A DNA stretch of 59,805 nt from Lachnospiraceae bacterium (GTDB taxonomy: Bacteria > Bacillota > Clostridia > Lachnospirales > Lachnospiraceae), in assembly GCA_017620375.1 (NCBI GenBank), contig JAFZQN010000046.1, forward strand, positions 1-59,805, written 5' to 3'. A program made the position numbers and the translations under genes. The stretch's first letter is position 1. Each line of letters starts with the position of its first letter. This document shows positions 21,898 through 42,895 of the stretch, in pieces. The notes beneath the pieces were generated by a model. That model searched no databases. It was not told the DNA's origin and saw only the letters and a list, made by a program, of their open reading frames with translations.

Positions 21898-21970
21898 TGA
21901 CAATGGGGACGGTTCTGTTTGTCATATTTTAAGAGAATCGTGGGTTCGGTTGATACCGGGCCCACTTTTT
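21898..21970 (+). repeat. short copy of the fold-back repeat; probable cadA terminator
   Basis: The left end (21898-21924, starting TGACAATGGGGACGGTTCT) matches 42562-42588 with one difference. It is followed by the hairpin GTGGGTTCGG/CCGGGCCCAC (21940-21965) and TTTTTT, which works as a terminator for the ATPase operon. The long copy at 42562 has the same hairpin in its centre. The repeat overlaps the ATPase stop codon. The rest of the 21971-22129 gap is AT-rich with no gene. Confidence 0.75.
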
Positions 21971-35811: not shown

Positions 35812-35989
35812 GATCAATAGCCTCGAAAAAGTTTTCAATAGTATCCTGTATTACGCAATAAAATAGTAGATTTATTTTCGAAATTCTGCTATACTGTTTT
35901 CTGGTCGGCGTGACCAAAGAGGACTAGTTTCGTAGTATACGACATGGGTGTATAAATTCAGAAAACACCTGCATAAAAAGGAAAACAGC

Positions 35990-37813
35990 ATGAACATATT
36001 TAACGTTATTGCACTGTTTGGCGGACTGGCTTTGTTCTTATACGGAATGAAGCTCATGGGAAACAGCCTGAAGGAAGGATCTTCGGGTACATTAAAGGTA
36101 GTAATGGAGAAGGTCACGAATAACCCTGTCAAGGCCTTCTTTCTTGGAGTTATTGTTACGGCTGTCATCCAGTCGTCAACAGCAACCATAGTTATTACTT
36201 CGGGTCTGGTAACCGCGGGCATTATTTCGCTTAGACAATCCCTCGGTATTATCGTCGGTGCAAACGTAGGTACTACCGTTACCGGCCAGATCATCCGACT
36301 GCTCGATGTTAACGCAGAGGGCGGTTCTATTCTTAAATTCTTTACTCCGTCGACGCTGGCACCTTTAGCACTTATCGCCGGCATCATTCTTATCATGTTC
36401 CTTAAGTTTAAAAAGTCCGACAACATCGGAAATGTCTGCATGGGTTTCGGTATACTTTTCACCGGACTTATGAACATGACGGCAGCGGTAAGCAGCCTTA
36501 CGGAAGGCGGACTTATTGAAAATATATTCTCAAGTTTGGGCGACAATCCCTTACTCGGTTATTTAGCGGGTGCGGGTGTTGCATTTGTTCTGCAAAGCTC
36601 GTCAGCTTCCATCGGTATTCTGCAGGCCTTTTCTATGGCCGGAGAAATCCCGTTCAAAACAGTATATATCATTCTGGTCGGCATTTACCTTGGTGACTGT
36701 GTGACCACAGCTATTGTATGTTCGATTGGAGCGAAAGCTGAATCAAAACGTGTAGGTATTATAAATATCCTTTACAATCTCAGCAAAACTGTCTTGGTCA
36801 TCGTCGGTGTTACCATATTCCATAAGATCGGAACGCTGGATAACCTTTGGGATGCATCCCAGACAGCAGGTACCATCGCCAATGCCAACTCGGTATTTAA
36901 CTTAAGCTGTGCGCTTTTGCTTCTTCCGCTTGTAAGTGTATTTGAAAAGCTTAGTTATGTAATCGTAAAAGACGATACTACGACCAAGGGCAAGTATTCT
37001 GAAAAGCTTAATGCATTAAGCCCGGTGTTCTTTGACACACCCGCTCTGGCACTTCGAAGCATTTATGACGTACTTCGTACCATGCTCGAAGCATCGATTA
37101 TCAATATTGATAAGGCCATGAACCTTATCTATGATTACAGGCCCGGTATAGCAGCAGAGATAGAAAAAGAAGAAGATAACATCGATCAGATGACGGATGC
37201 AGCCAGCAGCTATATGCTGAAGCTGAATCCGCACTTAAAAGATGAACTCCACATCAAGATCATAGACCAGTATTATAAGGATGTCACGGAATTTGAGCGA
37301 CTCGGCGACCATGCGGTAAATCTTATGGAAAGTGCAGAACAGCTCTCAAAGGACGGAAACGGGCTCACCGAAGAAGCTAAGAAAGAACTTGATATCTTAA
37401 GAAGACTTATCGGCAGGATACTTGAAAACGCCTCCTTAGCCTTTGTAAAACGTGATGTAGTAGCGGCACGTCACATCGAGCCTATGGAAGAGGTAGTAGA
37501 TGACCTGGTCAATTCACTGCATGACAACCACATAGCACGACTCAGGGACGGAAAATGTAAGGTTAATTCAGGTATCATATTCCTGGATATCCTGACTAAC
37601 ATAGAAAGGATATCGGATATCTGCTCCAACATCGGCGTGGCTACCATCGCCCGTGCGAACCCCGGAGCAGAAACACTCGCTCATTCCTATATTTCCTCGC
37701 TTCATCAAGGAAATGATAAGGACTACAATATGGAATACAGCAAGATCCACAGCGAGTTCTATAACATGTTCAAAGAAAACGATAACACAGAAGCAGCGAA
37801 TACGAAGGCGTAA
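35990..37813 (+). CDS. Na/Pi cotransporter-family protein with PhoU-like domain
   Basis: A 607-aa protein. The N-terminal half holds two inverted repeats of the Na+/phosphate cotransporter (PF02690), each with the QSS motif: VIQSSTATIVITSG and FVLQSSSASIGILQAF. The C-terminal ~200 residues (from about residue 350) form a helical PhoU-like domain (INIDKAMNLIYDYRPGIAAE, FERLGDHAVNLMES). It imports phosphate or a related anion. The ATG at 35990 follows AAAAAGGAAAA; an upstream GTG at 35948 is unlikely. A tandem repeat array begins 7 nt after the stop. Confidence 0.92.
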   Translation: MNIFNVIALFGGLALFLYGMKLMGNSLKEGSSGTLKVVMEKVTNNPVKAFFLGVIVTAVIQSSTATIVITSGLVTAGIISLRQSLGIIVGANVGTTVTGQIIRLLDVNAEGGSILKFFTPSTLAPLALIAGIILIMFLKFKKSDNIGNVCMGFGILFTGLMNMTAAVSSLTEGGLIENIFSSLGDNPLLGYLAGAGVAFVLQSSSASIGILQAFSMAGEIPFKTVYIILVGIYLGDCVTTAIVCSIGAKAESKRVGIINILYNLSKTVLVIVGVTIFHKIGTLDNLWDASQTAGTIANANSVFNLSCALLLLPLVSVFEKLSYVIVKDDTTTKGKYSEKLNALSPVFFDTPALALRSIYDVLRTMLEASIINIDKAMNLIYDYRPGIAAEIEKEEDNIDQMTDAASSYMLKLNPHLKDELHIKIIDQYYKDVTEFERLGDHAVNLMESAEQLSKDGNGLTEEAKKELDILRRLIGRILENASLAFVKRDVVAARHIEPMEEVVDDLVNSLHDNHIARLRDGKCKVNSGIIFLDILTNIERISDICSNIGVATIARANPGAETLAHSYISSLHQGNDKDYNMEYSKIHSEFYNMFKENDNTEAANTKA

Positions 37814-37819
37814 CGAGAT

Positions 37820-38190
37820 GATGCTACACAGAAAGTGAGAAAGGACCGGTGTGTTGCATGAAGCTGGGGAAATAATTGGCAATACTACACAGGAGCTGCG
37901 GTAGGATTTGCGTGTAGCATAAAGCTTGGGAAAAAATCTGGTAATGCAACACAGAAGGTTAGGTAGGATTTGCGTGTAGCATAAAACCAGAAAAACGACC
38001 TCGTAATGCAACACAGAAGGTTAGACAGAGCTTGCGTGTAGCATAAAGCTATGAAAATAAGTCTGTAATGCTACATACAAAAAGATATAGGAGCCATATG
38101 TAGCATCAAGCAAGAAAAACGACCTCATAATGCAACATAGAAATTGAGAAAGCTCAGGTGTGTAGCATACCCCCGAAATCGAAGGACCTA
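37820..38190. repeat. six tandem 62-bp units with inverted half-sites
   Basis: Units: 37820-37880 (61 bp), 37881-37942, 37943-38004, 38005-38066, 38067-38128, 38129-38190 (62 bp each). Every unit has ATGCWACAY near its start and its mirror TGTWGCAT at offset 33-40; two arms per unit give twelve half-sites in alternating orientation about 31 bp apart. The sequence between arms is poorly conserved, while the tail often reads GAAAAACGACCTCGT. It is not coding: 62 is not a multiple of 3, so the frame shifts from unit to unit. Confidence 0.92.
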
Positions 38191-38199
38191 AAAAAGCAA

Positions 38200-38236
38200 A
38201 AAACAAAAAAACAGGGAGCATATCAACTATGCTCCC
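38200..38236 (-). terminator. terminator of the DHH gene
   Basis: Stem GGGAGCATA/TATGCTCCC (9 bp) followed on the minus strand by TGTTTTTTTG. It ends the DHH transcript at the edge of the repeat array and may also work weakly in the plus direction. Confidence 0.88.
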
Positions 38237-38306
38237 TAAATTTTGCGCTTATAATTCGAATAATAAGATTTGCTGAGGTTTCGTAAGCATGCGACGTTAT
38301 TGATCC

Positions 38307-39227
38307 TTAGTCATTAGCAAGTGAGCAGAGTTCGTTCAGCATCTTGGGAAGTTCACTTTCCATATTCTCATCGGAGAACTGGCAGGTACCTACTGCCTTG
38401 TGGCCACCGCCGTTGTACTTAAGCATAAGAGCTCCGACATCAAGTGTACAGGTGCGGTTAAGTATGCTGTAACCTACAGCTGCGGAACATCCGTGGCCGC
38501 CACGACCTGAAACTATCCATGCGGATATGTTCTGATCGGGATAGAGGCTGTAGATCATGAAACGGTTGCCTGTATAGATGGGATCAACACCTCTTAAGTC
38601 GGTGATGATAACATTGCCCTTGGTGGAGGTGTACTTTACGATCATCTCCTTGAACTTAAGGCTCTGCTCCTCATAAACTTCGATACGTTCCTGAACATCG
38701 GGAAGAGCGAGGATCTGATCTATAGTCATGGTACGGCAGGCATCGATAAGCATTTCCATCAACTGATAGTTGGAAATAGTGAACTGTCTCCAACGTCCTA
38801 AGCCTGTTCTGGGATCCATAAGGAAACCGATGAGTATCCAGCCGGAAGGATTAAGTACTTCCTCACGGGTAAGGTTACCGGAGTCAACCTTGTCAACAGC
38901 TACCATCATATCGGTAAACTGAGGGAAGCGCTCCTCACCACCGTAATAATCATATATAATTCTTGCACATGAAGGAGCAATCCTGCTTTCGCCCTTGTAC
39001 TTGCCCTGAAGCTCATTTCTCTCAAATTCGCTTGAATGATGGTCAAACCACAGACCACATCCGGGAACAAAAGGAACATTTGCCAGACAGTCGTTCTCGT
39101 CTACTTCTACGATGCCATCCTGCAGATCCTTGGGATGAGCAAACTTCCAATTATCGATAATGCCGGCCTCTTTAAGAAGAGCACCGCATGCAAGACCATC
39201 AAAATCCGAACGTGTAACTAATCTCAT
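38307..39227 (-). CDS. DHH-family phosphoesterase
   Basis: A 306-aa protein of the DHH/DHHA1 superfamily (exopolyphosphatase and nanoRNase relatives). Motifs: DFDGLACGALL (metal site I), WFDHHSSE (the DHH motif) and the C-terminal DHHA1-type glycine loop KYNGGGHKAVGTCQF. The exact substrate (polyphosphate, short RNA or a dinucleotide) cannot be decided. The start at 39227 is preferred to 39281, because the mapped promoter would place the transcript start at about 39288. It may also hydrolyse linear products of c-di-nucleotide turnover, which is speculation. Confidence 0.85.
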   Translation of the reverse strand: MRLVTRSDFDGLACGALLKEAGIIDNWKFAHPKDLQDGIVEVDENDCLANVPFVPGCGLWFDHHSSEFERNELQGKYKGESRIAPSCARIIYDYYGGEERFPQFTDMMVAVDKVDSGNLTREEVLNPSGWILIGFLMDPRTGLGRWRQFTISNYQLMEMLIDACRTMTIDQILALPDVQERIEVYEEQSLKFKEMIVKYTSTKGNVIITDLRGVDPIYTGNRFMIYSLYPDQNISAWIVSGRGGHGCSAAVGYSILNRTCTLDVGALMLKYNGGGHKAVGTCQFSDENMESELPKMLNELCSLAND

Positions 39228-39294
39228 ATTAAACCACCGATACCGTATAACGGTTCCTTTCCAATACTTCAGCGGCCCCATACCGCTTTAAAAA

Positions 39295-42561: not shown

Positions 42562-42895
42562 TGACAATGGGGACGGTTCTTTTTGTCATCTTTTTTGAGA
42601 ACGGATGGCCAAACTAATGCATATGTATAAAACCCGTCTTCGCTTCGCAGGATATGCCAATCCATATCCGTCTGCATCTTCATATAAGACGCTCGCAATC
42701 GTGGGTCCGCTTGATACCGGACCCACTTGTGCTTCGCTCAAAAATCGGTTTGGTTAACCGATTTTTGCATATATTCCGATGCGACGTATACGGAGGCATA
42801 TCAGCTGCTTGCTTTATGGTTTTATACATTATGCCTTAGCTCGGCCATCCTTTGTTCTGACTGATAGATTGACAAAAAGAACAGTCCTACGTCAA
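42562..42895. mobile_element. ~335-bp fold-back (MITE-like) element, long copy
   Basis: The ends are inverted: TGACAATGGGGACGGTTCT (from 42562) against the reverse complement of the sequence near 42870-42895 (TTGACAAAAAGAACAGTCCT). Inside lies a second nested pair, GGATGGCC with TGTATAAAAC on the left and GTTTTATACAT with GGCCATCC on the right, then further matching arms, and at the centre the hairpins GTGGGTCCG/CGGACCCAC (42701-42726) and AAAATCGGTT/AACCGATTTT. Nearly the whole element pairs with itself. It encodes nothing. The GGGGACGGTTCTTTTTGTC end is one I associate with IS200-type non-autonomous repeats in Firmicutes. Confidence 0.75.

Follow-up and report, generated by a model that had tools for sequence, protein, structure and literature searches.

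A tandem array of alternating half-sites about three helical turns apart behind a gene of a Lachnospiraceae bacterium, a possible phased binding site for a symmetric protein

The array in the window and its surroundings

The DNA analysed here, referred to as the window, is a stretch of 59,805 nucleotides from a Lachnospiraceae bacterium (assembly GCA_017620375.1, contig JAFZQN010000046.1). A tandem array lies in it between a Na/Pi cotransporter gene and a convergent gene, for which neither Pfam nor NCBIfam gave a match at E 0.001 (Table 1). The terminator-like hairpin beyond the array is one of three terminator-consensus sites in the 1.1 kb scanned, while 1.1 were expected. An open reading frame (ORF) of 148 amino acids on the minus strand (37568-38014), which overlaps the array, was judged spurious.

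Table 1. Features at the array locus (positions in the window)
Feature	Position	Strand	Remark
Na/Pi cotransporter gene with PhoU domain, upstream	35948..37813	+	array begins 8 bp after its stop codon
Whole array	37821..38168	.	twelve half-sites in alternating orientation on six units, the first of 61 bp and the others of 62 bp
Unit 1 inverted pair	37821..37859	.	forward 37821-37828 ATGCTACA, reverse 37852-37859 TGTTGCAT
Unit 2 inverted pair	37882..37920	.	ATACTACA (one mismatch) and TGTAGCAT
Unit 3 inverted pair	37944..37982	.	ATGCAACA and TGTAGCAT; A/A at pair 5/35
Unit 4 inverted pair	38006..38044	.	ATGCAACA and TGTAGCAT
Unit 5 inverted pair	38068..38106	.	ATGCTACA and TGTAGCAT
Unit 6 inverted pair	38130..38168	.	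ATGCAACA and TGTAGCAT
Terminator-like hairpin beyond the array, T tail on minus strand	38212..38238	-	consensus match only
Convergent gene, DHH motif visible in sequence	38307..39281	-	DHH name from the first-pass annotation

A pattern scan for ATGCWACAYA and its complement, in which up to one mismatch was allowed, recognised six head-to-tail units with twelve 8-bp half-sites, six forward and six reverse in strict alternation. The half-site word is ATGCWACA with its complement TGTWGCAT, at positions 1-8 and 32-39 of the units, respectively, and 11 of the 12 half-sites carry the exact 8-mer. The core starts are 31 bp apart throughout, except for 30 bp at the first inter-unit junction. The first-pass annotation, which had described six units of 61 or 62 bp with these alternating words, is confirmed in this by the scan and by Tandem Repeats Finder (TRF), which independently recovered the 62-bp array. 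Corrections are needed to the offset of the mirror word, given there as 33-40, and to the half-site distances, given as 30 and 32 bp; the statement that the spacing is near three helical turns holds. Taken as one chain, the locus comprises 12 alternating half-sites, and no chain of three or more at 29-34 bp was present in 1.48 Mb of mononucleotide-shuffled loci.

The window also contains a small palindromic intergenic repeat around GGGACGGTTC, with two exact core words (21906-21915 and 42570-42579) and five matches to the core at up to one mismatch (1.67 expected). In relatives, this repeat is found close behind stop codons at L173, L174, L176 and L179, upstream of the gene that we take to be thiI.

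Occurrence and turnover of the arrays

The array does not stand alone, contrary to what had been predicted for a chance duplication. Seven further arrays of two to four units each are located on contigs C58, C62, C93, C97, C103, C142 and C146 of this genome (G000, ~86% complete), and others were found in the sister species G019, in G216 and G457 of a second genus and, in divergent form, in G357 of a third genus; the carriers are a few uncultured gut members of the family. Two pair patterns gave 12 and 23 matches in this genome, all within arrays, and neither pattern detected a single doublet; the exact pair pattern, with 12 forward matches in the whole genome, had no match in the reversed control. 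The exact word ATGCWACAYA occurs 52 times, 35 times in arrays and 17 times elsewhere, the latter near the level of the reversed control (13). A sequence-only profile, by which 150 of 1232 candidates were scored, revealed no further locus with E below 1 in this genome.

Within the genus, arrays are present in 2 of 24 genomes, namely G000 and G019, which has an array at one place, and the other genomes gave no profile match below E 0.03. In a sample of the family, a pair pattern matched in 12 of 397 genomes, 12 times in this genome, 19 times in G216 and once in each of ten others. One of these ten, G357, possesses a divergent five-unit array, and the loci of the remaining nine contain no chain. 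Both genomes found for the second genus carry arrays, with at least six arrays of 63-bp units in G216, each of about 4 to 10 units; for C10 of G216, TRF reports about four units, of which two pairs are intact. The profile retrieves the G216 arrays with a best E of 6.7e-8, but of 31 control loci (22 of them picked because their arms matched) L078 came to 2.8e-7 and a further six fell below 0.01, so that the profile alone cannot prove descent of the G216 arrays.

A strict pattern searched across the genomes of 84,980 species returned 36 stretches, with several matches only in Lachnospiraceae RUI443, the record of G019. Among these stretches is a contig of G457 (isolate RGIG10340, yak rumen), which on inspection has two units. 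A contig of G457 starts inside an array (L266:1-205), and assemblies may therefore break at these repeats and undercount arrays. In Algoriphagus, a chain of three half-sites, one of them mismatched (L101), was judged to be due to chance. Viral contigs yielded two single inverted pairs and no match to the tandem pattern, which is narrow because it required ATGCAACA first. An origin from phages or plasmids was considered and rejected, as the phage and plasmid records searched held no similar DNA. A generic detector of alternating arrays, run over 773,539 bases, listed only these half-site arrays and a 68-bp tandem inverted repeat of other sequence on an IMG/VR contig (L114:484-620); since it missed the C62 and C146 arrays, it is not sensitive. 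A literature search of limited depth retrieved no description of this repeat. Other tandem repeats were seen in the genomes with arrays: G357 has a different tandem array (L267:11459-11626), whose 65-bp units have TACCT/AGGTA-like inverted arms, and G216 has 52-bp tandem repeats (L254:1802-2173) close to a 37-bp palindrome (2299-2335) with the half-site core at both ends.

The ORF scans, from which all gene positions were taken, place the arrays of this genome 2-123 bp past a stop codon, when small or over-extended ORFs that overlap some of the arrays are disregarded. Neighbouring ORFs, of which 20 were scanned, have unrelated functions, which argues against a regulon. The sole recombinase among the neighbours scanned, which cover some of the arrays' neighbours, is an XerS/XerC-like tyrosine recombinase, whose gene (L053:4953-6002) starts 12 bp behind the C103 array and does not reach the curated cut-offs of the corresponding NCBIfam models; it was considered as an array-binding protein. 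In G216, a 258-amino-acid ORF on the minus strand (L221:7934-8710) adjoins a ten-unit array; searches of Pfam, NCBIfam and PHROG gave no match for it at E 0.001, and we assume a resemblance to PD-(D/E)XK nucleases. Near two other arrays of G216 are a weak AbiEi-like ORF (L252:4079-4534) and a Bro-N/DinD-like ORF (L253:1947-2417).

The number of units, for which a comparison between strains had been suggested in the first-pass annotation, was found to vary between species at two orthologous loci. Upstream of a ribosomal protein gene, presumably rpsL, this genome has two units and G019 has six, and the alignment gap of 248 bp corresponds to four units. At a locus flanked by what we take to be aldolase and transporter genes, G216 has five units and G457 two, with flanking alignments of 97% and 91% identity. 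At the locus of the window array, the aligned ends of the two genes are 63-142 bp apart in six syntenic relatives, which have no chain there, and among 22 and 23 loci of the genes presumed to be thiI and rsmA, for some of which synteny and an intact gap were checked, a chain occurs in this genome only; the gaps of the relatives are too diverged to place the array junction. The absence of arrays at the loci of relatives and the differing unit numbers indicate that arrays come and go and change in length. The tandem units clearly arise through duplication.

Conservation of the half-sites and pairing of the arms

Within arrays, the cores are kept about five times better than the spacers. Unit pairs in 13 arrays differ at 6.3% of core positions, 26% of adjacent bases, 35% of loop and 29% of linker positions, a contrast that is somewhat inflated, since unit pairs are not independent and the patterns allow no more than one or two mismatches; degenerate half-sites are thereby under-represented, and part of the core conservation stems from ascertainment. 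This comparison omits the C93, C10, G457 and G357 arrays as well as, among single units, the 61-bp first one of the window, the short-loop one of C58 and the fifth ones of C6 and C35. From one array to another in this genome, the mismatch is 15% in cores, 64% in loops and 66% in linkers. The equal divergence inside and outside the arms that had been named as a sign of chance duplication is thus not seen. Of the earlier description, in which the arms and a tail were conserved and the sequence between them variable, the part on the arms stands, while conservation of the tail is not supported, given the linker mismatch between arrays. Each of the 60 half-sites tallied for this genome has the same C4, A6, C7 and A8.

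The spacing is similarly regular. In this genome the inner spacing is 31 bp in 29 of 30 units and the outer spacing 31 bp in 21 of 22 cases, and in five G216 arrays the inner spacing is 31 bp in 27 of 27 and the outer spacing 32 bp in 20 of 21 cases; inner spacings were taken from the half-site scans and entered into the tally as fixed values. The second genus mostly has 31/32 bp. Exceptions are the C105 array of G457 (32/32/31) and the array of G357 (33/30), so the spacing is near three helical turns, but not absolute. At 10.5 bp per turn, a step of 31 bp makes the helix face drift along a long array.

Regarding the arms as possible hairpin stems, the fraction of paired arm cells did not exceed that of shuffled arms. 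The observed value was reached by 178 of 500 shuffles for 34 units of G000 and G019, out of 36 that are complete (omitting the 18-bp-loop unit of C58 and one G019 unit), and by 457 of 500 for 29 units of G216 and G457 (omitting C35, which has the opposite polarity, one C6 unit and two C105 units of G457). Cells with both sides changed were matched by 26 of 500 shuffles in the first set and by 489 of 500 in the second; among five covariation measures, this is the sole one that leans to a hairpin in the G000/G019 set. In 35 units (two C58 units omitted, the one with the 18-bp loop and the first, which is degenerate), pair 5/35 is mismatched in 10, with both sides changed in one, and in the C32b array of G216 it reads T/T in 8 of 10 units. 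Pair 9/31 is Watson-Crick in 24 units (20.1 expected), and pair 13/27, one among 19 pairs looked at, is paired in 24 (15.2 expected). The loops of 17 arrays folded slightly better than shuffled loops, as the mean z was -0.51 (s.e.m. 0.21) on the plus strand and -0.44 (0.20) on the minus strand. The G357 units carry inner complementarity, and two of their inner pairs show changes that look compensatory by eye. Apart from these exceptions, hairpin selection as a general rule is unsupported by the 35, 34 and 29 units and by the loop shuffling in 17 arrays. Since opposed arms pair no more than shuffled ones, the sequences favour recognition of double-stranded half-sites, with hairpin formation probably secondary at most.

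Interpretation and comparison with known systems

We tentatively propose, with a confidence just short of even, that the arrays are a REPIN/BIME-like dispersed intergenic repeat which acts in situ as a phased array of double-stranded binding sites for a symmetric protein. The proposal builds on established features, namely the sites, their phasing, the selective conservation of the cores, the lack of an arm-pairing excess, the differing unit numbers and the absence at orthologous sites. Three-turn alternation, conservation of the half-sites in place and the lack of regulon-like neighbours together point to such an array. A symmetric DNA-binding protein would recognise the half-site (A)TGCWACA, and the alternating half-sites at 31 bp, or in the second genus mostly 31/32 bp, would bring its protomers onto nearly one helix face, where, due to the alternate inversion, neighbouring protomers would meet head-to-head and then tail-to-tail. 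Such an alignment may enable cooperative binding, or bridging and looping of the DNA by the protein, and a compact nucleoprotein block could form behind a gene. Recombination between units would allow the arrays to grow and shrink, and the role would be structural, in topology or insulation, rather than control of particular genes. Among the candidates listed by the first-pass annotation, an array for a nucleoid or partition protein is the best supported as far as binding is concerned, while no partition or nucleoid protein was identified.

The main rival, possible though on balance doubtful, is a non-autonomous mobile repeat of the REPIN/BIME or MITE type without a host role, whose arms would be recognised by a trans-acting transposase or recombinase and be kept for mobilisation, the arrays being amplified modules. 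Amplification of a mobile repeat in place had also been suggested earlier, and the dispersal over eight places of this genome and the patchy occurrence across genera fit it. The presence in 2 of 24 genomes and the absence at orthologous loci of relatives are likewise what a selfish repeat would show, and count against the binding-array reading. Moreover, the C29 and C35 arrays of G216 have unit sequence in common. Regularly spaced alternating REPs and a strain-dependent length are described for BIMEs in the part of PMC2817692 that treats them, and conserved arms with a less conserved spacer of fixed length for REPINs in the corresponding part of PMC3116915. However, half-sites are kept in arrays whose units have diverged by about one third, which selection for mobility alone explains poorly. 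Furthermore, the two pair patterns gave no single doublets in this genome, its arrays share little besides the arms, as the loop mismatch between them shows, and no Y1/REP-type transposase was encoded among the 20 neighbouring ORFs scanned.

A more far-reaching version of the binding-array reading, which we consider rather unlikely, is a chromatin-like positioning element, where a dedicated protein would polymerise on the phased half-sites behind genes, the length would be tuned by recombination, and the element would move between Lachnospiraceae genera with its protein.

An RNA element, transcribed behind stop codons and stabilising or processing mRNA by serial hairpins, is unlikely. The position of the arrays behind stop codons in the ORF scan would suit it, and the array of the window, taken as RNA, folds better than 100 shuffles (z -3.68), as inverted repeats would give. 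The covariation measure reached by 26 of 500 shuffles and the inner complementarity of the G357 units also lean this way. Serial hairpins, another early candidate, are nevertheless disfavoured, because arm mismatches are mostly uncompensated, as at pair 5/35, and paired arm cells do not exceed shuffles. Pair 9/31 reads T.G seven times and C.A four times, counted on the strand as aligned and not on the transcription strand. In G216 both polarities relative to the upstream genes occur: in C29 the CACAG-bearing arm has the direction of the upstream gene, and in C6 and C32a the opposite direction. In Rfam, positions 37400-38600 gave nothing above the gathering score, and the two sub-threshold matches lie past the array end. 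A functionless chance tandem duplication of an inverted repeat is highly improbable: although tandem units do arise by duplication, the core and a similar geometry recur at separate loci and in a second genus, and the cores are far better kept than the spacers.

If binding in place is true, the arrays would be natural rulers in which the geometry of the protein (31 to 31.5 bp, alternating) is written in DNA. The protein would then be retrievable with a defined bait, and the phase rule would be directly testable.

SeqA-type phased site pairs have sites about three helical turns apart that are used by a symmetric protein. The arrays resemble them in the spacing and in the symmetric protein proposed here, by analogy only, and differ in sequence, organism and array form. 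With CRISPR arrays they share short conserved words and spacers of nearly constant length. However, CRISPR repeats measure 24-48 bp according to the relevant part of PMC3733652, whereas the words here have 8-10 bp and are alternately inverted, and the spacers, which are non-repetitive in CRISPR arrays, here resemble one another within an array.

With REPINs and REPIN clusters the arrays share two conserved arms in inverted orientation, around a spacer that has a set length and is less well conserved. As far as the REPIN sections of PMC3116915 describe them, REPINs are mostly single, compensatory changes are common, and ordered tandem clusters exist. Unlike REPINs, the arms here do not pair above shuffles (178/500 and 457/500, with a counter-signal in the value of 26/500 and the two G357 pairs), and all 12 and all 23 pairs in this genome fall in arrays. 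For BIMEs, the passages concerned in PMC2817692 describe extragenic, regularly spaced alternating elements whose module number varies between strains, and binding of gyrase or IHF is reported; a REP is given there as an imperfect palindrome with usually more than 100 copies per genome. Similarly, inverted elements alternate regularly in intergenic space here, with gene positions from ORF scans, and unit number varies between species (2 and 6, 5 and 2). In contrast to BIMEs, whose REPs are palindromes of 20-40 bp with a foot of GTAG or CGTC, what alternates here is a core of 8 bp that is not palindromic and recurs every 31 bp, in the eight arrays found in this genome; the core is GCWACA/TGTWGC, and GTAG and GTTG both occur. 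While some of the tested defining features of both are absent, BIMEs and REPIN clusters are the closest kinds by layout. If the arrays do bind a protein in place, they would make it easier to tell apart mobility and binding, which are usually mixed in BIMEs and REPINs, since no single elements were found in this genome and half-sites are kept in diverged arrays.
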